DNA of 64,000 bases from Rhodohalobacter sulfatireducens (GTDB lineage Bacteria; Bacteroidota; Rhodothermia; Balneolales; Balneolaceae): assembly GCF_022012475.1 (NCBI RefSeq), contig NZ_JAKLWS010000025.1, positions 1 through 64,000 of the forward strand, given 5' to 3'. Below the pieces are notes generated by a model that saw nothing but the letters and a program-made list of their open reading frames with translations, was not told the DNA's origin and searched no databases. Positions 3,328-17,119 of this stretch are shown piece after piece. The first letter of the stretch is position 1, and every line of letters begins with the position of its first letter. A program made the translations under genes and the position numbers.

Positions 3328-3774
3328 TTAACAACAAGTAACTAATTCCTTTCCAACATTCAATTTAGGCTTACAAACCGTTGGTTTTACATTCAATTGA
3401 AGTGATACTGATTCAGTGGTACTATCAAAAGACTCAATGGAATACCGAATAGTAGGAAAATTGGAATCCCCAAATTCAATAAACAGTTCAGCATTATCTT
3501 TGTAGGACTTTTCCTGGCCCACAATATCAATGATTTTGATTGCTTTGTCGGTTGTCCAGTCAGCAACTGTATCTGACCATTCATTGACTGAAAGCTGGAT
3601 AACAGTTTCGTCATAGGAGTGGGGATTGCCACCACAATCAACCGAATCAACCGAGTGGTGCTGAATTTCTGTGATATGGAGGTCACCCGAGATCACTGTC
3701 TGATCCGGTAAGACAAATTGGAGTTTCTTGCCAGAGTTGGAGATAAGTTTATGTATAAATGTAGCAGTATTCAT
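3328..3774 (-). CDS. DUF6428-like protein of arsenic operon, C-terminal Cys-Cys
   Basis: A 148-residue soluble protein without signal peptide or membrane helix. It resembles the DUF6428 family, short proteins found in Bacteroidota ars operons; I make this link from memory of the family, not from a search. It is rich in predicted beta strands, and carries a Cys-Gly-Gly near residue 47. The tail holds CKPK near residue 134 and ends in Thr-Cys-Cys. The vicinal Cys pair at the very C-terminus could bind trivalent arsenic. It sits between arsC and acr3 in the same orientation, so a chaperone or sensor role in handing arsenite to the pump is possible but unproven. No catalytic motif is visible. Confidence 0.7.
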   Translation of the reverse strand: MNTATFIHKLISNSGKKLQFVLPDQTVISGDLHITEIQHHSVDSVDCGGNPHSYDETVIQLSVNEWSDTVADWTTDKAIKIIDIVGQEKSYKDNAELFIEFGDSNFPTIRYSIESFDSTTESVSLQLNVKPTVCKPKLNVGKELVTCC

Positions 3775-3964
3775 CCTATCGTATTTTTGCGATTAATATT
3801 GGTAAATTTTTTTTGATACTCATTAAGATGTTTATGCTATTCTGATTTTTCTCATTAAATAATGAATTTAATCAGCTTTTCCATCTATCAGATCATTTGC
3901 TCAGCTATTCGTGGTTCTCCGGTTAAGAGGGATTATCGAGATGTCGAATCTAAATTTTTTGATG

Positions 3965-4588
3965 TTATTTTAAATTTCTATTTGTCAAACTCATCATATA
4001 AAACATCTGCGTTGCGATCTGTTTGCAGCGTTCATCATAAGTTTCAGTTTCTTTTTCGGTTCCGTCTGATTCTTTGGGATCGCGATAGGTGATCGGCTTC
4101 CTGAATTCAGCACCCGGCACAAACGGACAGTTTTCATCGGCATCGGAGCAGGTCATAATTGCAGCAAAACCTGAGTCGGGATTTACAGGGTCATCAAATG
4201 TTTTTGAGAAGCAGATCATCGGGTCGGAGTCCTCATCAAACCGAACTTTGTACCTTGGATTTTCGCCCCCTGGGTTTTCAATTTGAAATCCGGCTCGTTC
4301 CAGTGCTGCAACGGCTCGTGGATTAAAAGCCGTGGCTTCTGTTCCACCGGAATAGGTTTCTATATCATTTACGTTATAGTGGCTAGCAGCAACCGCTGTC
4401 CAGATCTGGGCTAAATGACTCCGCCGGCTGTTGTGTGTACAGATAAAATTCAATTTAGCGGTCTCATCGTGACCAAGTTTCGAACCGGCATAATCTGCTA
4501 CCTTTTCTAAATCATTTTTTCGGGATGTTGGAATGGAATCAAAATTTGATTCCAGGTTTGATAAATAGGTTTTTAATGTTGTATACAT
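3965..4588 (-). CDS. arsC: Arsenate reductase, thioredoxin-coupled LMW-phosphatase type
   Basis: A 207-residue protein of the low-molecular-weight tyrosine-phosphatase fold. The P-loop CTHNSRR (Cys50 to Arg56, a CX5R motif) is preceded by a roughly 45-residue N-terminal extension not present in the short ArsC of pI258. The second half contains CSDADENCP (Cys147 and Cys154), matching the resolving Cys pair of thioredoxin-linked ArsC enzymes. Together these three Cys support reduction of arsenate to arsenite rather than protein dephosphorylation. It lies between arsM and the DUF6428 gene, separated from arsM by 166 bp that contain an imperfect stem-loop. Many databases call this family protein-tyrosine-phosphatase; the intact Cys triad argues for ArsC. 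Confidence 0.85.
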   Translation of the reverse strand: MYTTLKTYLSNLESNFDSIPTSRKNDLEKVADYAGSKLGHDETAKLNFICTHNSRRSHLAQIWTAVAASHYNVNDIETYSGGTEATAFNPRAVAALERAGFQIENPGGENPRYKVRFDEDSDPMICFSKTFDDPVNPDSGFAAIMTCSDADENCPFVPGAEFRKPITYRDPKESDGTEKETETYDERCKQIATQMFYMMSLTNRNLK

Positions 4589-4646
4589 GATGGTTTCAGC
4601 AATTCATTCAATTTTTCGTAGGGTAGTTCATTATATGATCAGCGAT

Positions 4647-4704
4647 CTGCCAGAGTACTCGGGGTTGGCAGTGTCACGCCGATGGAGAATCCGGACTCTG
4701 ACAG
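4647..4704 (-). promoter_or_regulatory. Imperfect stem-loop between arsM and arsC
   Basis: Arms CTGCCAGAGT (4647-4656) and ACTCTGACAG (4695-4704) pair at nine of ten positions. A small GGC/GCC stem is nested inside. It lies 51 bp behind the arsM stop in the leftward operon and could be an RNA-processing or attenuation site, or a degenerate repeat. No T-run follows on the minus strand, so it is a poor intrinsic terminator. Confidence 0.35.
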
Positions 4705-4754
4705 GTTCTCAATTGAATTATCTTTCGACTAATTAAAAATTGGATGGAAAAAAT

Positions 4755-5663
4755 TTAACAGCAACCCGATCCTGGTTCACAACTAGCAGAGTTATTTTCT
4801 GAAACCAATTCAGTAACTTGGTTTTGATATGATACATTGGTTTTGCCAGGTTTTTGAGCAAAGACAGTGATACTGTAGATGCCGGTTCCACCTGAATTGA
4901 ACTCATTGATCTCTTCATGATTGAGATACTGACTCAAAATATCATCCGGTAGTTCAATCGGCTTTTCTTTTTGAATGGTGATATTTTCAAAACCAACCTC
5001 ATGAATGTGATTCAGATACTTTTCTTTTTGAATGGCTCCGGCTACACATCCGGCATACATTTCGGCATCTTGCCGAAGAGACTTCGGCAGATCTCCCTCC
5101 AGTACGATATCAGAAATGCTGAAATGTCCACCCGGTTTTAAAACACGATGGATTTCCGAGAACACTTTTGGCTTGTCGGGGACCAGGTTTAGTACACAAT
5201 TACTTACAACTACGTCCGCTATATTATCGGAAACGGGCATCTCCTCGATATCGCCGAATCGAAACTCTACATTATTGTAACCCAATTTTTCTGCATTCTG
5301 CCGAGCTTTGCTAATCATCGATTCAGTGAAGTCAATACCCAGAACCTTGCCTTCGGGCCCTGTTTCATGGCGAGCTACAAAACAGTCGTTTCCTGCACCC
5401 GAACCGAGGTCGATAACCGTATCACCTTTTTTAATTTTGGCAAATTGAGTAGGGAGACCACAGCCGAGCCCGAGATCAGCATCAGAATTGTATCCCTCCA
5501 GTTCACTATAATCATCAGTCATGATATTATAGACTTTTTTGGATTCACCACCGGCTCCACAGCATGAACGGGCATTGTAATCGGCACCCTGGTCACTGAT
5601 TTGGCTGTATTTGTTTCGAACCGTTTCTTTAAGTTCCTCAGAAGTTTTTTGGTTTATGCTCAT
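4755..5663 (-). CDS. arsM: Arsenite S-adenosylmethionine methyltransferase
   Basis: A 302-residue class I SAM-dependent methyltransferase. The SAM-binding loop DLGSGAGNDCF is near residue 90, followed by VLGIDFTESMI and the SNCVLNLVPDK segment characteristic of ArsM. Conserved Cys are seen in RSCCGAGG near residue 33, in LGLGCGLPTQ near 68, in NCVLN near 159 and in the YAGCVAGA motif near 205, as expected for binding As(III). The tail ends CEPGSGCC, with a terminal Cys pair. The product converts arsenite to mono-, di- and trimethyl arsenicals. It starts one base after the arsR stop (TAATATG), so the two are translationally coupled. Confidence 0.94.
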   Translation of the reverse strand: MSINQKTSEELKETVRNKYSQISDQGADYNARSCCGAGGESKKVYNIMTDDYSELEGYNSDADLGLGCGLPTQFAKIKKGDTVIDLGSGAGNDCFVARHETGPEGKVLGIDFTESMISKARQNAEKLGYNNVEFRFGDIEEMPVSDNIADVVVSNCVLNLVPDKPKVFSEIHRVLKPGGHFSISDIVLEGDLPKSLRQDAEMYAGCVAGAIQKEKYLNHIHEVGFENITIQKEKPIELPDDILSQYLNHEEINEFNSGGTGIYSITVFAQKPGKTNVSYQNQVTELVSENNSASCEPGSGCC

Positions 5664-5664
5664 A

Positions 5665-5997
5665 TTAACAGCAATTAGAATGTTGAGTTGAAAGATTTGT
5701 TAAAAAATTCTTCATGATCTCCTGCAGATCGGAAATTGTTTCTTCGTCCAGGCAATAGCAGGTTCGAACGCCGTCAATCTCACCTTTAATAATGCCTGCT
5801 GATTTCAGGGCTTTCAGATGTTGAGAAACCGTAGATTGAGCGAGTGGCAGCTGTTCTGTGATATCTCCACAGATGCATGTGTCCCGTTTCGCCAGGATTT
5901 CAAGAATTGCAATCCTTGCGGGATGTCCTAATGCTTTTGCAAACTCCGCGGTTTGAACCTGCTTTTTGTCAAATAGTTCTGCTTTTGTAATTGCCAT
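5665..5997 (-). CDS. arsR: ArsR-family As(III)-responsive repressor
   Basis: A 110-residue winged-helix regulator. The core shows the metal-sensing segment RDTCICGDI (Cys-x-Cys near residues 39-41) followed by the recognition helix AQSTVSQHLKAL. The tail ends SNCC, giving a second possible As(III) site. I place the start at the ATG at 5997. A frame open to 6051 would force the promoter and the palindromic operator to be coding, so the 18 extra residues are rejected. ArsR should bind the operator at 6006-6021 and release it when arsenite is bound, controlling the whole leftward operon including itself. Its stop is one base from the arsM start. Confidence 0.93.
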   Translation of the reverse strand: MAITKAELFDKKQVQTAEFAKALGHPARIAILEILAKRDTCICGDITEQLPLAQSTVSQHLKALKSAGIIKGEIDGVRTCYCLDEETISDLQEIMKNFLTNLSTQHSNCC

Positions 5998-6005
5998 AAT
6001 CGTAT

Positions 6006-6021
6006 ATCGTAAATTTACGAT
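6006..6021 (-). promoter_or_regulatory. Palindromic operator for ArsR
   Basis: A perfect 16-bp palindrome, ATCGTAAATTTACGAT, lies between the -10 box and the arsR start codon and would cover the transcription start. Position, symmetry and size fit an autoregulatory ArsR/SmtB-family operator. Binding is inferred from position only. Confidence 0.75.
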
Positions 6022-6022
6022 G

Positions 6023-6051
6023 AATATAAACGGATTTGTCTTTGTTGTCAA
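6023..6051 (-). promoter_or_regulatory. Sigma70-like promoter of the ars operon
   Basis: On the minus strand, TTGACA (6046-6051) and TATATT (6023-6028) are separated by exactly 17 bp. The predicted start falls inside the palindrome at 6006-6021, and the arsR ATG follows about 20 bp later. An 11-bp palindrome, ATGATTATCAT (6051-6061), sits just upstream of the -35 box. Confidence 0.7.
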
Positions 6052-6271
6052 TGATTATCATGAATAAAATTTTGAGTTCTCTCACCACTTGCGCCAGTTA
6101 GGAGATTTATCCAGGGGAGTGGCAATAAAACTGAAAAGTGCTATCGGCACGGCCTATCTCAGGCTGACCAACTTTAGGGAAATTAAACTGCAGAAAAGCC
6201 CGTAATTACAGTTCCGGGTGTTTCATCTTGCAAATCTGCGACGTCGCAAAATGATTCAATGTCAATTTAAT

Positions 6272-6284
6272 TGAAACGGTTTCA
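6272..6284 (+). promoter_or_regulatory. LacI-like operator candidate upstream of GMC oxidoreductase
   Basis: TGAAAC-G-GTTTCA is a perfect odd-centred palindrome 73 bp before the GMC start codon. The half-site TGAAAC is typical of LacI-family carbohydrate regulators, so sugar-responsive control of the oxidoreductase pair is plausible. No regulator gene is nearby, hence the modest confidence. Confidence 0.4.
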
Positions 6285-6356
6285 TTTTTTATCGAAAATA
6301 TTGTAATCTGTTCACCGAATTGAACGTTACTCTCCAAATAAATCGAATAGCAGTAT

Positions 6357-8096
6357 ATGAGTTTTCAAATCCAAACCTCTGGTGATAAGTATGATGTTGC
6401 AATTGTGGGATCCGGAGCCGGTGGCGGGATGGCTGCTAAGATCCTCGCTGAATCCGGTCTGTCCGTAGCGGTTTTAGAAGCCGGTGGATATTTTGATCCC
6501 GCCCAGGAAGAGTACAGGACTCAACTGCGCTGGCCATGGGAATCCCCCCGAAGAGGAGCCAGTACCGTTCGGGATTTCGGAGATTTTGATGCCGCCTGGG
6601 GAGGCTGGGAAATTGATGGTGAACCTTACACCAGAAATGATGGAACCGAATTCGACTGGTTTCGATCCCGTATGTTGGGTGGGCGAACCAATCACTGGGG
6701 ACGAATCTCGCTTCGGTTTGGTCCGGAGGATTTCAGGAGAAAAGATATTGACGGGCTGGGTGATAACTGGCCCATCGGCTACGAAGATATCAGCCCTTAC
6801 TACGACAGGGTAGATAAACTGATTGGAGTATTTGGGACGAATGAGGGATTGCCAAACGATCCTGATGGCTATTTTCTGCCCCCACCCAAGCCGAGACTTC
6901 ACGAGCTCTATATTCAAAGAGCTGCTGAACAGGCCGGAGTTCCTGTAATTCCATCACGGCTTTCTATATTAACCCGTCGGGTGAGTGAGCGCAGAGGGGC
7001 CTGTTTTTATTGCAGCCAGTGTAATCGGGCTTGCAATGCTTATGCTGATTTTTCGGCCGGTACATGCCTGGTTCAGCCAGCCATGGAACGTGGTAAAGTG
7101 GACCTCTATACCAATGCAATGGTCCGCGAAGTCACTACCAACGGCGACGGATTGGCAACCGGCGTTGTTTATATCAACAAAGAGGATATGCAGGAATACC
7201 AGGTGAAAGCTCGTACAGTTGTTTTGGGAGCCTCGGCATGTGAAACTGCTAGAATTATGCTGAACTCCAAATCAGCACAACACCCCAATGGATTGGCAAA
7301 CGGAAGTGGTGTTCTCGGTCGATATCTTCACGATTCAACAGGAACATCAAGGTCTGCAATAATTCCCGAACTGATTGATCGCAAGCGATACAATGAAGAT
7401 GGTGTGGGGGGTATGCATGTTTATACTCCCTGGTGGGGAGATAATTCACAACTCGACTTTCCGCGCGGCTATCATCTCGAATATTACGGTGGGATGGGAA
7501 TGCCGCTCTACGGTACAGGATTTGGAATGGACTCGGCGCGACAGTATATCAAAGATGAAATGGGTAACCCTTCACCCAATGGAGGCTACGGTAAAGGCCT
7601 GAAACAGGATATTCGAAAATTATACGGTTCAACAGTTGGAATTTCGGGTCGAGGTGAATGTATCGCCAGATACGACAACTATTGTGAGATCGATCCGGAT
7701 ACAGTCGATAAATACGGTATTCCCGTGCTCCGATTCAATTATACATGGAGTGAACACGAGATTAACCAGGCAAAGCATATGCATGATACATTCGAGGAGA
7801 TTTTGACCAATTTGGGTGGGATTTTGCTGGGTGATAAACCGGGCCCCGAAACCGACTATAATCTTGCGGCTCCCGGGCGAATTATCCATGAAGTTGGAAC
7901 TACAAGAATGGGAGATGATCCCTCAACATCCGTTCTGAATGAGTACTCTCAGGCTCATGAGTGTGAAAACCTGTTTGTGGTGGATGCCGGAAGTTTTGTA
8001 TCGCAGGCGGATAAAAATCCAACATGGACCATCATGGCACTTTCCTGGAGGACCTCGGATTACATTGTCGATCAAATGGAAAAAGGAAATCTCTAA
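6357..8096 (+). CDS. GMC-family FAD-dependent oxidoreductase, large subunit
   Basis: A 579-residue flavoprotein of the glucose-methanol-choline family. The FAD-binding loop VGSGAGGG is at 17-24, with the acidic end of the second strand at EAGG near 41. A Cys-rich stretch (ACFYCSQCNRAC, about 215-226) and the C-terminal KNPTWT catalytic segment resemble gluconate 2-dehydrogenase-type large subunits, which oxidise polyols or sugars and pass electrons to the respiratory chain. No signal peptide is visible. Export with the Tat-targeted partner (8108-8842, 11 bp downstream) is the usual arrangement. The substrate cannot be told from the sequence. Possible sugar control is suggested by the LacI-like palindrome upstream. 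Confidence 0.88.
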   Translation: MSFQIQTSGDKYDVAIVGSGAGGGMAAKILAESGLSVAVLEAGGYFDPAQEEYRTQLRWPWESPRRGASTVRDFGDFDAAWGGWEIDGEPYTRNDGTEFDWFRSRMLGGRTNHWGRISLRFGPEDFRRKDIDGLGDNWPIGYEDISPYYDRVDKLIGVFGTNEGLPNDPDGYFLPPPKPRLHELYIQRAAEQAGVPVIPSRLSILTRRVSERRGACFYCSQCNRACNAYADFSAGTCLVQPAMERGKVDLYTNAMVREVTTNGDGLATGVVYINKEDMQEYQVKARTVVLGASACETARIMLNSKSAQHPNGLANGSGVLGRYLHDSTGTSRSAIIPELIDRKRYNEDGVGGMHVYTPWWGDNSQLDFPRGYHLEYYGGMGMPLYGTGFGMDSARQYIKDEMGNPSPNGGYGKGLKQDIRKLYGSTVGISGRGECIARYDNYCEIDPDTVDKYGIPVLRFNYTWSEHEINQAKHMHDTFEEILTNLGGILLGDKPGPETDYNLAAPGRIIHEVGTTRMGDDPSTSVLNEYSQAHECENLFVVDAGSFVSQADKNPTWTIMALSWRTSDYIVDQMEKGNL

Positions 8097-8107
8097 TCAA
8101 CAGAATT

Positions 8108-8842
8108 ATGGACAGAAGAGAACATCTTAAATTATTATTAGCAGGCGGAGCGGGAGCTGCACTTTTCATGTCAAGTTCCTGTACTCCGGAAGATCAACGA
8201 CGAAGTGAAGAGATTATCGCCGAAAATGGCGGTGGGCCGGGATATGGCCGGACGGAAGAAGAAGAGGAGAGAGATGCCCGTTTGAGGTCGGAAACATTTT
8301 TTACCGATCATGAAATGGCTACAGTTGCCGTTTTAGCGGATATCATTATACCAGCAGATGAAGAATCGGGAAGTGCGACTGACGCCGGAGTACCTGACTT
8401 TATCGAGTTTATGATGAAAGATTACCCGCCGTTCCAAAACCCAACGCGTGGCGGTTTGATGTGGCTGGATAGTCAGTGTAATGAACGATTTGGAAGCAGA
8501 TTCGTCGACTGTACTGAAGAAGAACGGATAGAGATGGTGGACCTGATCGCCTGGCCCGATGATGCCGATCCTGATATGATGTATGGAGTTCGATTTTTTA
8601 ACCGGATGCGTGATCTCGTTTCAACAGGATTTTTTACTTCTGAGATGGGAGTTGAGTACATGGACTACAAAGGAAATACGCCCGGTTTTTGGGATGGCGT
8701 ACCACAGGAAGTTCTGGAAGAACACGGCTTTTCCTATGACGAAGAGATGATGGATAAATACATCAAAGAGGAGGAGCGGTACGTATTAGCTGAGTGGGAC
8801 GAAGATGGAAATGTGATCAATCGATCCGGGGATAGCGGGTAG
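8108..8842 (+). CDS. Gluconate 2-dehydrogenase subunit 3-like lipoprotein, Tat-exported
   Basis: A 244-residue partner of the GMC protein. I start it at the ATG at 8108, 11 bp after the GMC stop. A longer frame beginning inside the GMC gene would bury the export signal. The N-terminus MDRREHLKLLLAGGAGAALF is a twin-arginine signal, followed by a lipobox-like SSSC with Cys25. The body carries the subunit-3 hallmark VLADIIIPADE near residue 80 and is strongly acidic. In homologous dehydrogenases this small subunit is needed for Tat export and assembly of the flavoprotein. The combination of Tat signal and lipobox implies the complex is tethered to a membrane in the periplasm. Confidence 0.82.
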   Translation: MDRREHLKLLLAGGAGAALFMSSSCTPEDQRRSEEIIAENGGGPGYGRTEEEEERDARLRSETFFTDHEMATVAVLADIIIPADEESGSATDAGVPDFIEFMMKDYPPFQNPTRGGLMWLDSQCNERFGSRFVDCTEEERIEMVDLIAWPDDADPDMMYGVRFFNRMRDLVSTGFFTSEMGVEYMDYKGNTPGFWDGVPQEVLEEHGFSYDEEMMDKYIKEEERYVLAEWDEDGNVINRSGDSG

Positions 8843-8852
8843 TTTTTTTGAT

Positions 8853-8869
8853 AGTAGAAGCGGAGCTTC
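8853..8869. repeat. Dispersed 17-bp repeat, copy 2
   Basis: Identical to 233-249 (AGTAGAAGCGGAGCTTC). It starts 10 bp after the stop of the subunit-3 gene and just before the tandem array. Confidence 0.6.
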
Positions 8870-8873
8870 ATAC

Positions 8874-8936
8874 TAGGTGTAGTAGGTGTAGTAGGTGTAG
8901 TAGGTGTAGTAGGCGTAGTAGGCGTAGTAGGCGTAG
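8874..8936. repeat. Tandem array of seven 9-bp units
   Basis: Four copies of TAGGTGTAG (8874-8909) are followed by three copies of TAGGCGTAG (8910-8936), all without interruption. The single T-to-C difference is sorted into two blocks, as expected from slippage within each block. The array runs into the hairpin at 8935-8953. It is non-coding and has no spacer structure, so it is not CRISPR. Confidence 0.9.
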
Positions 8937-8953
8937 CGAAGGAGACCTTCGCT
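8935..8953. repeat. 8-3-8 mini-hairpin
   Basis: AGCGAAGG-AGA-CCTTCGCT is a perfect 8-bp stem with a three-base loop, overlapping the last two bases of the tandem array. No T-run follows, so it is not a standard terminator. It has the same geometry as hairpins at 29, 20303, 38830, 43268 and 43387. Confidence 0.6.
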
Positions 8954-9172
8954 AATCAACAAACCTGACAGCACCTACCGGATCTGTCAGCGTTATATGT
9001 CAAAGACAATTGCCTTCAAAGCTAAGATGAGATCGGAAAAGGCACCTAGCAAGATGTCAATTCGCTAAACACGTTTAGACTTTTGCAACAAGTAAGAATA
9101 TAAATTACCGTCTGCTTTAGCTTACGGTTAGAGAAGATTCACAATTAGTGGCTTCAGCCCCATTCTTCACGA

Positions 9173-10216
9173 TCACCCTTCAGATCTTCTCACCCGAATG
9201 CCATACGCCTCTTGTGGGTTTTGAATTAGAAGCTGATTGATCTCCTCATTCGAAAAACCTCTCTCTTTCAGTTCCGGAATCAAGCTTTCAAAAATATCGG
9301 TGTAGCTCCTGAAGTCTCCTCCGTTTTCGGTATCCGCTTCGTAAAACCCGGCATCATGTGAGATTAGGACCTGGTTCAGAAAACCAGCTTCTTTGAGTTC
9401 TTCAATTCGATCTGCAGTCCACTCAATATTTCCGCCGTCATTGCCTTCATCATTTACATTATCAAGAGAGATCCATGCACCCTCTGCAGCAGCCTCTAAA
9501 TTCCCTTCAAGAGTACCTGATTGGGCATGAGTCCAAACCCACGCTGCAGGAGATACACCGCTGCTGGTCAAGCGTTCAACTTGCTCAAGAGCAGGAACAT
9601 CCCCGATCGTGTGTGAAGTAATGGTCAGCCCTGTTTCGAGATGAGTTTTGATGGCTGCATCTACAATTTTTTGGTGCAGATTAGAAAGTGGTTGCTCACT
9701 CCCGACAGAAATTTTCATGAAGCCCGGCCGTATGTCACTTCCTTCAATACCGTTTTCAAACTCATCAATCCAGATTTCAGCAATTTCATCCGAACTGTTC
9801 TCGTAAGCTAACTGAGGCATAAAGTTATTATCAACTGCCCCGTAAAAACCGGTGTTGGTAACCACGTTTAATCCGGATTGGTCAGAAAGTTCAGCGAGAA
9901 TAAACGGGTCTCTACCGAGATAGGCAGGACTCAAATCAAAAAAGGTATTGAGACCCAACTCTTTAACTTCCAGCAAGTAGGGGAGAACCCTTTCCACTAC
10001 ATCTTCACGATCCCAGCGGTGGTAGCCGGTACTGTCCGCCCCAATCCAATCAACCATTACATGTTCGTGGACAAGCGTGGTATCCATTTCTGAAGCATTG
10101 ATTGGGCCTTTTACAGTCATGATCGTTCGCCCCTCATCTGCAGAATCTGACGTACAGGAGAAGCCGGTGATCAAAGCTGCGATAAGAACGGGTAGAAGAA
10201 GTCTGTTTGAGTGCAT
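9173..10216 (-). CDS. Phosphotriesterase-family metal hydrolase, lipoprotein
   Basis: A 347-residue amidohydrolase-superfamily protein of the phosphotriesterase (PHP/PTE) branch. The signal peptide ends in a lipobox (LITGFSC, Cys21), so it is probably anchored in the periplasm. The binuclear metal ligands of the family can be placed: His50 and His52 in HEH, a candidate carbamylated Lys168 in GFMKISVGS, His202 in TSHT, His230 in VWTHAQ and Asp288 in SHDAG. Family members hydrolyse lactones or phosphoesters, and which applies is unknown. It is followed on the opposite side by the PBP1A gene in the same orientation, 91 bp apart, with a terminator-like inverted repeat between them, so it is probably transcribed alone. 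Confidence 0.85.
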   Translation of the reverse strand: MHSNRLLLPVLIAALITGFSCTSDSADEGRTIMTVKGPINASEMDTTLVHEHVMVDWIGADSTGYHRWDREDVVERVLPYLLEVKELGLNTFFDLSPAYLGRDPFILAELSDQSGLNVVTNTGFYGAVDNNFMPQLAYENSSDEIAEIWIDEFENGIEGSDIRPGFMKISVGSEQPLSNLHQKIVDAAIKTHLETGLTITSHTIGDVPALEQVERLTSSGVSPAAWVWTHAQSGTLEGNLEAAAEGAWISLDNVNDEGNDGGNIEWTADRIEELKEAGFLNQVLISHDAGFYEADTENGGDFRSYTDIFESLIPELKERGFSNEEINQLLIQNPQEAYGIRVRRSEG

Positions 10217-13504: not shown

Positions 13505-14635
13505 CTACTGATACAACCACCAGTCGATCAGGTAAACTGCTCCGAATATAATACTCAGTCCAATTAAGCTGATAATCGGTTCCCATATCACAAATCCACC
13601 AATCGTCCCCAAAACAGCACCGAGATACTGAATAGTCTTCAGCTGTTCGTTGGTGGCATTGCGAATCATCATTTCGAGGCGCTGCTCATCATATTTTTGG
13701 AGATTTTCCTCCACCAAATTCTGCACATTAAGCTGGTTAATCAGTTTATAGAGAAGAAGCGTGATGACCTCGTCAATCTTGTCACTGTTGCGGTGGATCT
13801 TTTCAGGGAACTCATCTAGGTACTCTTCAATGTACCCGATATTTCGCTCTGCGGTGACCGGTAATCGCTCTAACAGGTTATTGATGAACTGGTGGAGTGT
13901 TTGACCACTGAGAAACGAATACGTTTTTAAAGCAGCTTTTTCCAGTGCCCGGTTCTGTAGTGCATCCTCAATTTCCAATAAAATGTGATCGGAAACTTTC
14001 TTTCGGAATTCAGGATTTTGAACCATAGAGTCAATGTACTCGAGTAACCAGGTTTTTAAATCTTTCCGAAAATCTTCCCGTTCGGTAATCTGCTCAATAT
14101 GATCTATCGCCTGTAGTCGGTAGTGGCTAATCGCCTTCGATTCCCGAATTTTCTGTTTGATTAGTTCCGGGTTGATAAGATCTTCCGAAACAGCATGCGA
14201 GAGTCGATATGCAATCCGATCCTTGTGTGCGGGAACCAATCCCTGCCCAAGCAGTGGCCGTTTCTTCACCGGCCTGAAAAGCATTGTAATGGCAATCCAG
14301 TTGGTCAGGAAACCGATCATACCACTAACGGAGATGATGCGTATGATCCCTTCAAATTGGAGAGAAAGGCCGAAAATCTCAGCTCCGAATCCCTGGAAAT
14401 CCCAAAGGAACGAGAACGCAAACAGGGCACAAAGAATCCAGGGAATCGGTTTTAAAACTTGAAGAATCGGTAATTTTGCAATCGTGGGAGCAGATGTAGC
14501 CCGGATATCTTTAGAGGTACTGCCGGAATCAAACTCAAGATACTTGGAGATGATCTCCCCGAGTTTTTTAAAATGACTCTCTTCCCCGGATGAATCCGTA
14601 TTCGTAGTCACAGGTTTTTTTTCTTCTACTTCCAT
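13505..14635 (-). CDS. DUF445 family membrane protein
   Basis: A 376-residue membrane protein of the DUF445 (YheB/YjiN-like) family. Two hydrophobic helices lie at about 62-108, followed by the family signature GFLTNWIAITMLFRPVKKRP and GLVPAHKDRIAYRLSH. A long helical, charged central part (150-335) precedes one or two helices at the C-terminus. Function is unknown; the family is linked to membrane or envelope integrity only loosely. The first 45 residues are a soluble, charged head. It stands alone, between an inverted-repeat-rich region and the topoisomerase-like gene 186 bp upstream. Confidence 0.85.
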   Translation of the reverse strand: MEVEEKKPVTTNTDSSGEESHFKKLGEIISKYLEFDSGSTSKDIRATSAPTIAKLPILQVLKPIPWILCALFAFSFLWDFQGFGAEIFGLSLQFEGIIRIISVSGMIGFLTNWIAITMLFRPVKKRPLLGQGLVPAHKDRIAYRLSHAVSEDLINPELIKQKIRESKAISHYRLQAIDHIEQITEREDFRKDLKTWLLEYIDSMVQNPEFRKKVSDHILLEIEDALQNRALEKAALKTYSFLSGQTLHQFINNLLERLPVTAERNIGYIEEYLDEFPEKIHRNSDKIDEVITLLLYKLINQLNVQNLVEENLQKYDEQRLEMMIRNATNEQLKTIQYLGAVLGTIGGFVIWEPIISLIGLSIIFGAVYLIDWWLYQ

Positions 14636-14821: not shown

Positions 14822-16186
14822 CTAAGACGTTATTACATCAACAGCTGTTTCAATTGTTAGTGTAGGTTCTTCTTTTATTCGATTCAACTCCGAAAGTTTT
14901 TTTCGGGTTGAATCTGCCAGATCCAGTTTCTGCAGGACTTCTTTCCCCGGCGCGACCACCGGTCCGTCCAGGTGAACCCATCCTTTCGAAATAAATTCAT
15001 CAACTGTTTTTCCAAAATTGGAAGGTTTGATGACTCCCAAATCATCGAGTAGTATTCCAAGTTCACTCATAGTCAAACAGGGTCTAAGAGATTGTGCGTT
15101 CACCCTGTTTTTGGATGATTTTGGAAAGAACGCTACATCCGGGTTCAGATCACTTACCAAAACTTTATCAATGGGTTCAGGCATGGAAAGGCTTCGTATT
15201 GTTTGATCGTAAATCCACTTGTACAGCTGACCGATATTTTTCGATAACTCACCAGAAATAGTACCCGGATCCAGGGACAGATCAATAGGATGGATGCTCT
15301 CATGCGGGCTGTCAGAATCGGCAATTTCTTGTAAATAAGTGGGTTTCAGATCATTAACCGAACCCCGTTTTAAATACTGCTTTCTCAAATGTGTCCAGGT
15401 ATCACTGTAAAAAGCCTGTGCCGAGGTGCGCGGATAACTGATGAGAGACTCCTCAGAAAAAGGTAAAATAGTTTGAAAAAGCTGGTTCAATAGCAGTTGA
15501 GCGTCATACCCACTTTCAGGAGATTTTTGAGTGATCAGAAACTCAAGAACTTCAAATGTGGAAAGCGGTTTTACAGTTCTGAACTCGTTGGAATTCGATT
15601 CACTTCTTACTCCGATCCACTCATCAATTGGGCATTGTACGGGGCTTGTGCTTCGATATAAATGGTTGTTTTCATCCAGGAAGGAATGAAACTGATGATG
15701 GGCCCCAAATACAGATACTAAACCCGCAAGTTGGAGGTCTGAAATCTCTGCATGCTTTGGCCAGACGTTTTGAATGAGTAAACGGTTTTTGAGACGATTT
15801 TCAAGCATTGATTCATCCAGTTCCGTTGTATCGCTCAGCATGTTATGAATGCTCTCCCGGCTGAGGCTTTGTAGCTGTCCTCTCTTAACATTGGAAGATT
15901 TGATAAATTTGTTAACAGACCACGCGATAAAATCACCCGAAGGGTCAGAGTCGACCCCCACAACAATGGTATTGGCAATTTGCGATTGTTCTTTCATCTC
16001 CTTCCGGATCTCACGTTTATCCGGATCGGCAATAGCTTTCATTTTATGACGGGTCGCATCATATTTGGGTCGCCAGCAATATCCATCCGTGGAAAGCACA
16101 TACACCGAAGGCGGACAAAGTTTTTGAATGATTCCCGCAATCGTAGGAGATTCAACAATTAGCAATGTGTAGACAGAGAGATCCAT
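14822..16186 (-). CDS. Divergent type IA topoisomerase paralogue, no zinc fingers
   Basis: A 454-residue protein with the order of a type IA topoisomerase core. The TOPRIM start LLIVESPTIAGII has Glu12, and the second TOPRIM motif VVGVDSDPSGDFIAW has Asp79 and Asp81. The 5Y-type active site LISYPRTSA has candidate Tyr251 and Arg253. SPHESIHP near 293-300 matches the HEAIRP motif, and LGVIKPSNFGKTVDEFISKGWV near 384-405 matches the GIGRPSTYA region. TopA has DxDxE at the metal site; here the third acidic residue is Ser83. It is shorter than TopA (about 590 for the core alone) and lacks C-terminal Cys4 fingers. It starts 2 bp after ybeY. It could be a reduced-activity DNA or RNA topoisomerase. 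Family is likely; activity is uncertain. Confidence 0.72.
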   Translation of the reverse strand: MDLSVYTLLIVESPTIAGIIQKLCPPSVYVLSTDGYCWRPKYDATRHKMKAIADPDKREIRKEMKEQSQIANTIVVGVDSDPSGDFIAWSVNKFIKSSNVKRGQLQSLSRESIHNMLSDTTELDESMLENRLKNRLLIQNVWPKHAEISDLQLAGLVSVFGAHHQFHSFLDENNHLYRSTSPVQCPIDEWIGVRSESNSNEFRTVKPLSTFEVLEFLITQKSPESGYDAQLLLNQLFQTILPFSEESLISYPRTSAQAFYSDTWTHLRKQYLKRGSVNDLKPTYLQEIADSDSPHESIHPIDLSLDPGTISGELSKNIGQLYKWIYDQTIRSLSMPEPIDKVLVSDLNPDVAFFPKSSKNRVNAQSLRPCLTMSELGILLDDLGVIKPSNFGKTVDEFISKGWVHLDGPVVAPGKEVLQKLDLADSTRKKLSELNRIKEEPTLTIETAVDVITS

Positions 16187-16188
16187 GA

Positions 16189-16668
16189 TCAGTCTTTCAA
16201 CTGTTCCAGGTAGTGATTTTCGAGTTGCGTCATAATATTTTTTTCATCCTTTGAAGTATCATTGTACCCTGCAAGGTGTAGCAACCCATGAATAAATATA
16301 CGATAAAATTCCTGTTGAATATTGGATGCCATTTCGCTGCTCTGTTCAGCAATTCGAGGGGCACAGCAGTATAAGGTCCCTTCGATTTCTTCTTTTGATG
16401 GGCTTGAGTCTTGCTCATCATTATAATTGAAGGATATAATATCAGTTACGTAGTCTCTCTCGAGGTATTTTTTATTGATTTCAATGATGCCTTCCTCATC
16501 GACGTAGACAAGTTCAACCAGTTCGAAGGTAATGTTTTCTCCTGATTGGATAAGCCCGATGATACTCTCCAGATCATGTAACTCTACGGGCAGATCGAAA
16601 TTAGAGGGATTATAAACTGATAGAACTGATTCGTTTAATTCGCCGGGAAAATCAGGAAACGTTGTCAT
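16189..16668 (-). CDS. ybeY: Endoribonuclease YbeY, rRNA maturation factor
   Basis: A 159-residue YbeY/UPF0054 protein. It shows RDYVTDIISFNY near 71-82 (the TDVLSF motif) and the metal-binding HGLLHLAGYND at 127-137, with His127 and His131. The third ligand, His in proteobacterial HGxLHLxGYDH, is Asp137 here, a variant I associate with Bacteroidota homologues. YbeY trims the 3' end of 16S rRNA and takes part in ribosome quality control. Its start overlaps the preceding 155-codon gene by 17 bp, and the topoisomerase-like gene follows 2 bp after its stop, so the three are almost certainly one transcript with coupled translation. The common neighbours phoH and era are absent. Confidence 0.92.
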   Translation of the reverse strand: MTTFPDFPGELNESVLSVYNPSNFDLPVELHDLESIIGLIQSGENITFELVELVYVDEEGIIEINKKYLERDYVTDIISFNYNDEQDSSPSKEEIEGTLYCCAPRIAEQSSEMASNIQQEFYRIFIHGLLHLAGYNDTSKDEKNIMTQLENHYLEQLKD

Positions 16669-17119
16669 CGTCGAAAGAGAAATCGTCGATATCGAGAGTG
16701 TCGGACAACGACAGGGCTACACCGCACATCATCATATCTTCAGGAAGTTGTGTAAAATCGCCGGTGAGTACGGAATCATCTACGTTGGAATACAAGCTGC
16801 AACCGGCACCCTGTTCAATAATCAGCCCGGAGGTAATTCCATTTTGCTTTCCGAAAAAAGTAACCTGCTTCAGCATTTCACTAGCTATGAATGCTGTACA
16901 GTTGTGTAGCTGTAAAAATGTATTCCCGGAGTAAACGGATACCATGTTCATGCGCTTTTCATCGACTTCAAGCCCAAGATGTATTTCAAGCGCTAGTTTT
17001 CTGCCATCTTCCTGGTTATCCATTTCGAGCCTGTAAACATCGTTACCGAGTCTTTTGGGTGTAGATTCCAACACTTTTCCAATGGACAAAATATTGTCTT
17101 CCGTAAATTCGTGTATCAT
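16652..17119 (-). CDS. Hypothetical protein, first gene of ybeY operon
   Basis: A 155-residue cytoplasmic-looking protein that I do not recognise. It has no signal peptide or membrane helix. The sequence alternates short strands with one helix, contains two separated Cys (HNCTAF near 94 and GAGCSLY near 126), and ends in a very acidic tail (DIDDFSFDDDNVS). The gene overlaps ybeY by 17 bp, so it is translationally coupled to it. Codon use and composition do not stand out from the neighbours. A role connected to ribosome maturation can be suspected only from position. Confidence 0.7.
   Translation of the reverse strand: MIHEFTEDNILSIGKVLESTPKRLGNDVYRLEMDNQEDGRKLALEIHLGLEVDEKRMNMVSVYSGNTFLQLHNCTAFIASEMLKQVTFFGKQNGITSGLIIEQGAGCSLYSNVDDSVLTGDFTQLPEDMMMCGVALSLSDTLDIDDFSFDDDNVS

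Follow-up and report, generated by a model that had tools for sequence, protein, structure and literature searches.

A short type IA topoisomerase homologue occupies the ancestral topA slot behind ybeY in Balneolales

A short gene encoding a type IA topoisomerase homologue occupies the position of the ancestral topA gene in Balneolales, while these bacteria use a zinc-free TopA encoded at another locus, an arrangement that is new here. The reading that we favour, with a little better than an even chance of being correct, is that the gene is a displaced ancestral topA that was reduced and kept for a new role, its product being a putative tyrosine transesterase retained on a changed substrate. 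Few known enzymes are as conserved as the type IA topoisomerases, of which almost all free-living cells possess one. The carriers of the short gene belong to a group of mostly salt-loving bacteria. Their short protein is cut to about half the length of topoisomerase I and was apparently kept for a new job. Its gene would thus clearly exemplify how an essential gene, once a second version has taken its place, can persist in its original operon instead of being lost. Throughout the family, six active-site residues are kept while groove residues described as strictly conserved have been dropped. This natural sequence set separates the chemistry from the DNA grip, and would allow a direct test of the purpose of the groove and of the turn of the core to RNA. 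With 454 aa, the protein is also very small for a complete core of four domains, which is of use in structural studies.

The gene was analyzed in a stretch of 64,000 nucleotides of Rhodohalobacter sulfatireducens DNA, hereafter the window; the positions of the features are given in Table 1. The first-pass annotation had described an open reading frame of 454 residues beginning 2 bp past the ybeY stop codon, and the coordinates agree with this description. The frame starts with ATG on the minus strand, a detail absent from that description, and 186 bp separate it from the downstream DUF445 gene. The topoisomerase motifs listed in that annotation are all present, with Ser83 at the place of the third TOPRIM acid and without CxxC pairs. 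Because up155 overlaps ybeY and the gap between ybeY and the short gene is only 2 bp, the three genes are read as a single unit. A phage or mobile origin was rejected: no relative of the short gene was found among the viral contigs searched, a PHROG search gave nothing better than E=0.004, and a defence-system search returned no match.

Table 1. Positions of the short topoisomerase gene, its active-site codons and the neighboring genes in the window
Feature	Position	Strand	Details
Short type IA topoisomerase homologue, 454 aa	14822..16186	minus	TOPRIM (D1), reduced D4, reduced D2 arch, D3 with Tyr251; no C-terminal domain
DSDPSGD: TOPRIM DxD (Asp79, Asp81) and Ser83 at the third-acid place, codons 79-85	15932..15952	minus	
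Glu12 codon, equivalent of E. coli TopA Glu9, invariant	16151..16153	minus	
Tyr251-Pro-Arg-Thr: active-site Tyr and Arg, Y and R invariant	15425..15436	minus	
His295 codon, equivalent of E. coli TopA His365, invariant	15302..15304	minus	
ybeY, rRNA maturation endoribonuclease, 159 aa	16189..16668	minus	Pfam YbeY E=9.2e-26; Pfam and NCBIfam above cut-off
up155, 155-aa protein, first gene of the conserved block	16652..17119	minus	17 bp overlap with ybeY
DUF445 membrane protein, 376 aa, next downstream gene	13505..14635	minus	Pfam DUF445 E=1.5e-31; position conserved

The short protein is certainly a type IA topoisomerase homologue. The curated Pfam models alone are weak on it and stay below threshold (Toprim, 21.7 bits for a cut-off of 23.1; Topoisom_bac, 25.5 for 35.1), and the NCBIfam bacterial TopA equivalog TIGR01051 scored 46.4 bits, below its cut-off of 456.4. 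Homology is nevertheless settled because the family profile and hhalign matches are strong. A profile of 23 family members matched the S. mutans TopA (PDB 6ozw, E=1.9e-25, residues 4-405) and the T. maritima TopA (2gai, E=1.1e-22), and hhalign of the short family against 21 TopAs gave 100% probability (E=1.1e-41) over 434 columns, covering TopA residues 1-582. The AlphaFold model of the short protein (pLDDT 87.8, pTM 0.87) had E. coli TopA as its best Foldseek match (E=5.5e-21, query TM 0.58-0.63). Each of the 50 PDB matches in the list (E <=1e-13) was a type IA enzyme or a covalent complex of one. Membership in the topoisomerase family, first proposed from motifs, is therefore borne out by profile, alignment and predicted structure; among the HMM searches, it is the family profile and not the Pfam Toprim and Topoisom_bac models that reaches significance.

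The best structure and sequence matches, E. coli TopA (1cy0, 1ecl, 4rul) and S. mutans TopA (6ozw), extend over almost the whole length, but identity with the short protein is 14-16%, and the latter has shortened loops throughout and no C-terminal domain. In the predicted model and the hhalign alignment, the domains D1-D4 of the toroidal core are all represented, each of them trimmed, and the spacing from DxD to the active-site Tyr is 165-210 in the short family versus 199-245 in TopA. Neither zinc fingers nor Toprim_C_rpt repeats nor any C-terminal domain were detected by Pfam and a CxxC scan. Topoisomerase III (E. coli TopB, human TOP3B) gave a structural match (E about 1e-14) weaker than that to TopA. 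This class resembles the short protein in comprising core-only enzymes able to function without a zinc tail, but the residue following the catalytic Glu in the short protein is Ser and not Lys.

Equivalent residues were taken from the hhalign mapping to TopA and an alignment of 23 short-family rows. The equivalents of E. coli Glu9, Asp111, Asp113, Tyr319, Arg321 and His365 (Glu12, Asp79, Asp81, Tyr251, Arg253 and His295 in the short protein) are invariant in all 23 members, as is the equivalent of Ser10. There are 23 invariant positions among the 454 of the alignment, and the probability that all six active-site residues fall among them by chance is about 9e-9. Members sharing as little as 24% identity still all have the Tyr, Arg, Glu, DxD and His, the Tyr and Arg are kept also in the divergent member L095, and loss of the active-site Tyr was seen in none of the short-family members examined. 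In type IA enzymes the Glu serves as general acid and Mg ligand together with the Asp pair, the Tyr is the nucleophile, the Arg lies at the phosphate and the His acts in a proton relay; solved structures show the Glu and the DxD pair at the Mg ion (PMC6101483, PMC10969213). The first-pass annotation had proposed an altered metal site from Ser83. This substitution is real and family-wide, the position of E. coli Glu115 being Ser in 20 and Ala in 3 of the 23 short members and Glu in 21/21 TopAs. However, as the Mg-ion residues are invariant in the short family, Ser83 alone does not amount to a broken metal site, and the proposal was overstated in this respect. A search of the open-access literature for E115A data on E. 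coli TopA found none.

In the alignment, the loss of the residues of the G-strand groove and of Lys13 is a larger change than Ser83. Lys13, reported as necessary for cleavage in E. coli TopA (PMC6101483), is absent from 23/23 members, which have Ile, Leu, Val or Thr instead. A review by Tse-Dinh described Arg168 and Asp172 as strictly conserved and required for cleavage (PMC7587558). The Asp172 equivalent is never Asp in the 23 members, and that of Arg168 is Arg in only 7 of them and replaced in the other 16, including the protein of the window. The segment of Tyr177, a residue whose change to Ser abolished activity (PMC7587558), falls in a gap of the hhalign alignment. The SAGRxQ helix, in which Gly194, Arg195 and Gln197 grip the cut strand (PMC6101483, PMC7587558, PMC10969213), has no counterpart in any of the 23 members, its exact alignment partner being uncertain. 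The 21 TopAs used for comparison were chosen by the SxGRxQ pattern, so that their 21/21 for this motif is by construction; the other columns are unaffected. The Asp323 equivalent varies within the short family; at the position of Arg507, 7 of the 23 members have Arg and 6 have Lys. The overall pattern is that of a chemistry centre retained and a strand groove and tail discarded.

With the loss of R168, D172 and K13, the short protein may be unable to cut. It could thus be a pseudo-topoisomerase, that is, a binding or regulatory protein without cleavage, whose ring fold and active-site pocket would be kept to bind nucleic acid or metal, or which would itself act as a partner of the housekeeping TopA. 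Two points speak for this possibility: cleavage or relaxation by E. coli TopA is reported to depend on K13, R168, D172, the SAGRxQ helix and the Tyr177 segment (PMC7587558, PMC6101483), all of which (R168 usually) are gone here, and the short gene has been lost several times without trace. We nevertheless hold it to be rather unlikely, since invariance of Tyr, Arg, Glu, DxD and His over such divergence is unusual for a dead enzyme, and the tyrosine is lost in no member. A retained transesterase is favoured over a binding-only protein because every residue of the chemistry is invariant. In such a transesterase, Tyr251, aided by Arg253, would attack the phosphodiester, Glu12 would protonate the leaving 3'-OH with Asp79 and His295 in the relay, and Mg held by Glu12 and the DxD pair would support rejoining. 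With the D4 groove residues and the C-terminal tail gone, the protein would not be expected to be an ordinary supercoil relaxase, and it would probably act on another single strand, ssDNA or RNA, or on one presented by a partner.

The distribution of the short gene is restricted. It was found in 42 of 129 Balneolales genomes, representing 8 of 39 genera and three families; extending the search to 245 genomes added none elsewhere in the class, and the genome scan revealed no short form outside Balneolales. Four remote matches outside this order proved to be ordinary full-length TopAs with DREG, and the matches outside Balneolales in a sample of the phylum were TopA-type frames, nearly all of 750-930 aa. 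In the genus of the window (g1, which includes the Rhodohalobacter halophilus locus L026/L081), 26 of 28 genomes carry the short gene, and the two without it are 57% and 64% complete and also without ybeY. The order up155-ybeY-short gene-DUF445 holds wherever the contig is long enough. A survey of the linkage with ybeY, suggested in the first-pass annotation, found the short gene near ybeY in every locus with both genes assembled. Elsewhere in the same family, numerous genera have ybeY and then DUF445, with no topoisomerase between them. The dN/dS of close short-gene pairs ranges from 0.07 to 0.24, showing that the short gene is maintained under purifying selection; these values, together with the homologues in Balneolales, also rule out a chance open reading frame. 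Pairwise distances of the four operon genes correlate with each other (r 0.76-0.91; 0/999 permutations as high), as expected from vertical descent of the short gene; between the short gene and its neighbors, r is 0.81-0.91.

Some loci depart from this organization. In genus g12, locus L104 (G069:C4, 2263-2870) is without the short gene and has about 600 bp with no topoisomerase match between ybeY and DUF445; its congener G070 has the short gene, and this looks like a fairly recent loss. In L108 (G041, 3508-9920), ybeY and DUF445 are about 6.4 kb apart, unlike in relatives, owing to an insertion. In the bin G073, up155/ybeY occurs at two loci, L129 with an f5-type smg and L103 with the short gene, so that this bin is probably a mixed assembly.

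The operon was located outside Balneolales with up155 as a marker. In 15 regions fetched from eight families, up155, ybeY, smg and TopA follow each other on one strand, 14 of these regions being counted as with or without smg. The latter was not found in regions L172 and L178, and its open reading frame is short in L173 and L184. The operon-linked TopA is full length there (750-823 aa), and it is usually followed by a gene for an xerC-like tyrosine integrase, an identification made by eye without a family search. The genes up155-ybeY-smg-topA and the xerC-like gene form an old conserved block of the phylum (L168-L187, L092, L101). Within Balneolales, the short gene comes after ybeY-smg in family f2 and in genus g36 of family f5, and others have ybeY-smg without the short gene. 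Since the slot after up155-ybeY-smg holds a full TopA in eight outside families, the short gene occupies the slot of the ancestral topA. The operon-linked zinc-finger TopA shares with the short protein this slot, the order of the four-domain core and the six active-site residues, but the short protein is about 300-370 aa shorter and lacks the C4 zinc fingers, K13, E115, D172 and SAGRxQ. Most f5 genomes without the short gene (L122-L132) have a glycosyltransferase-like gene directly after smg, followed by the xerC-like gene. This glycosyltransferase-like gene stands where topA or the short gene stands elsewhere.

The genome of the window encodes a housekeeping TopA of 849 aa at a different locus (G000:C50), as the first-pass annotation had expected; the possibility that the short gene is the only TopA of the genome was therefore rejected. 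A search with the Topoisom_bac model found a single full-length TopA in each of the 8/8 short-gene genomes checked and, at the sensitivity of this model, no TopB-like third gene in any of them. Two types of TopA can be distinguished. The operon-linked TopAs have 4-5 CxxC pairs after the core, whereas the Balneolales housekeeping TopAs have none and carry four repeats of the GRYGPY type (Toprim_C_rpt); that of the window genome has no cysteine at all. The housekeeping enzyme resembles the short protein in core fold, active site and absence of zinc fingers, but differs from it in its complete groove residues, its four C-terminal repeats and its locus. The absence of zinc fingers pointed out initially thus sets the short protein apart from the TopAs in the same slot and not from the TopA of its own genome.

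The short gene was initially termed a paralogue. It is indeed a type IA homologue in a genome that has another TopA, but gene order and the different TopA types suggest that it is better called the displaced original than a duplicate of the resident TopA. On gene order alone, descent from the operon topA is very probable. In this view, the phylum's ancestor would have had a zinc-finger topA following ybeY-smg, with the short gene as its in-place descendant. The second, zinc-free TopA with four Toprim_C_rpt repeats would carry the housekeeping load in Balneolales from its other locus. Many lineages would then have lost the original topA, whereas in Rhodohalobacter with its relatives and in a few further genera it would have been pared down to the four-domain ring (about 450 aa). 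Placement by tree was attempted three times and is hampered by the very long branch of the short family, which is monophyletic (100/100). The zinc-finger TopAs form one supported group (96/99) apart from the Balneolales enzymes. In the best trees, the short family stands beside the other TopA type or is unplaced (support 53/28), and a placement with the zinc-finger group, to which it is not joined there, is not rejected (p-AU 0.141) on so long a branch. The lack of such a join would fit a later duplication, or the horizontal acquisition of a topoisomerase fragment, with insertion after ybeY/smg by chance and no relation to the operon topA. This origin is improbable, because eight other families have topA in precisely this position, where an unrelated insertion would be highly coincidental, the distances of the short gene track those of its neighbors, and no relative was found in viral contigs, nor outside Balneolales in the genome scan.

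We infer descent from the operon topA, retained chemistry and a changed substrate. One specific proposal for the function is an RNA transesterase or RNA topoisomerase aiding rRNA maturation alongside YbeY. The short gene is translationally close to ybeY in all loci with both assembled, RNA is an in vitro substrate of type IA enzymes, a role in rRNA processing has been proposed for mycobacterial Topo I (PMC10969213), and the changes in the groove could favour RNA (PMC7587558). However, the link with ybeY is older than the short protein and was inherited from an operon that holds an ordinary TopA in other families; it is therefore not specific and gives weak evidence for a ribosomal role. Moreover, ybeY persists where the short gene was lost, and no RNA-binding domain was found in the short protein, so that we regard this proposal as doubtful. 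Slightly less doubtful, although still unlikely, is the broader possibility of a transesterase without DNA relaxation that, with its intact Tyr/Arg/Glu/DxD/His centre and a rebuilt binding surface, might act on structured RNA (e.g., pre-rRNA near YbeY) or be a site-selective strand transferase.

A search of the available literature found no published link between ybeY and topA and no Balneolaceae topoisomerase. The dprA-smg-topA operon of Neisseria and other bacteria (PMC5817196) likewise has smg directly before topA, but the partner here is ybeY; dprA was considered as an adjoining gene and rejected, since it lies at another place in G000, G003, G075, G092 and G104. The Neisseria study stated that smg occurs only in Beta- and Gammaproteobacteria (PMC5817196); contrary to this statement, smg (PF04361) is clearly present in this phylum. 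The first gene of the block, up155, is present in nearly all Balneolales, and relatives within the genus that carry the short gene share 69-93% identity in it. It also occurs in 93 of the 247 genomes sampled from the phylum and as a rule immediately precedes ybeY. Its product had no match in Pfam, NCBIfam or PADLOC, and its predicted model had no significant match in the PDB. The AlphaFold model (mean pLDDT 76) shows a strand-rich core (pLDDT about 90) and a poorly modelled, disordered tail, and up155 may deserve an entry as a domain of unknown function.
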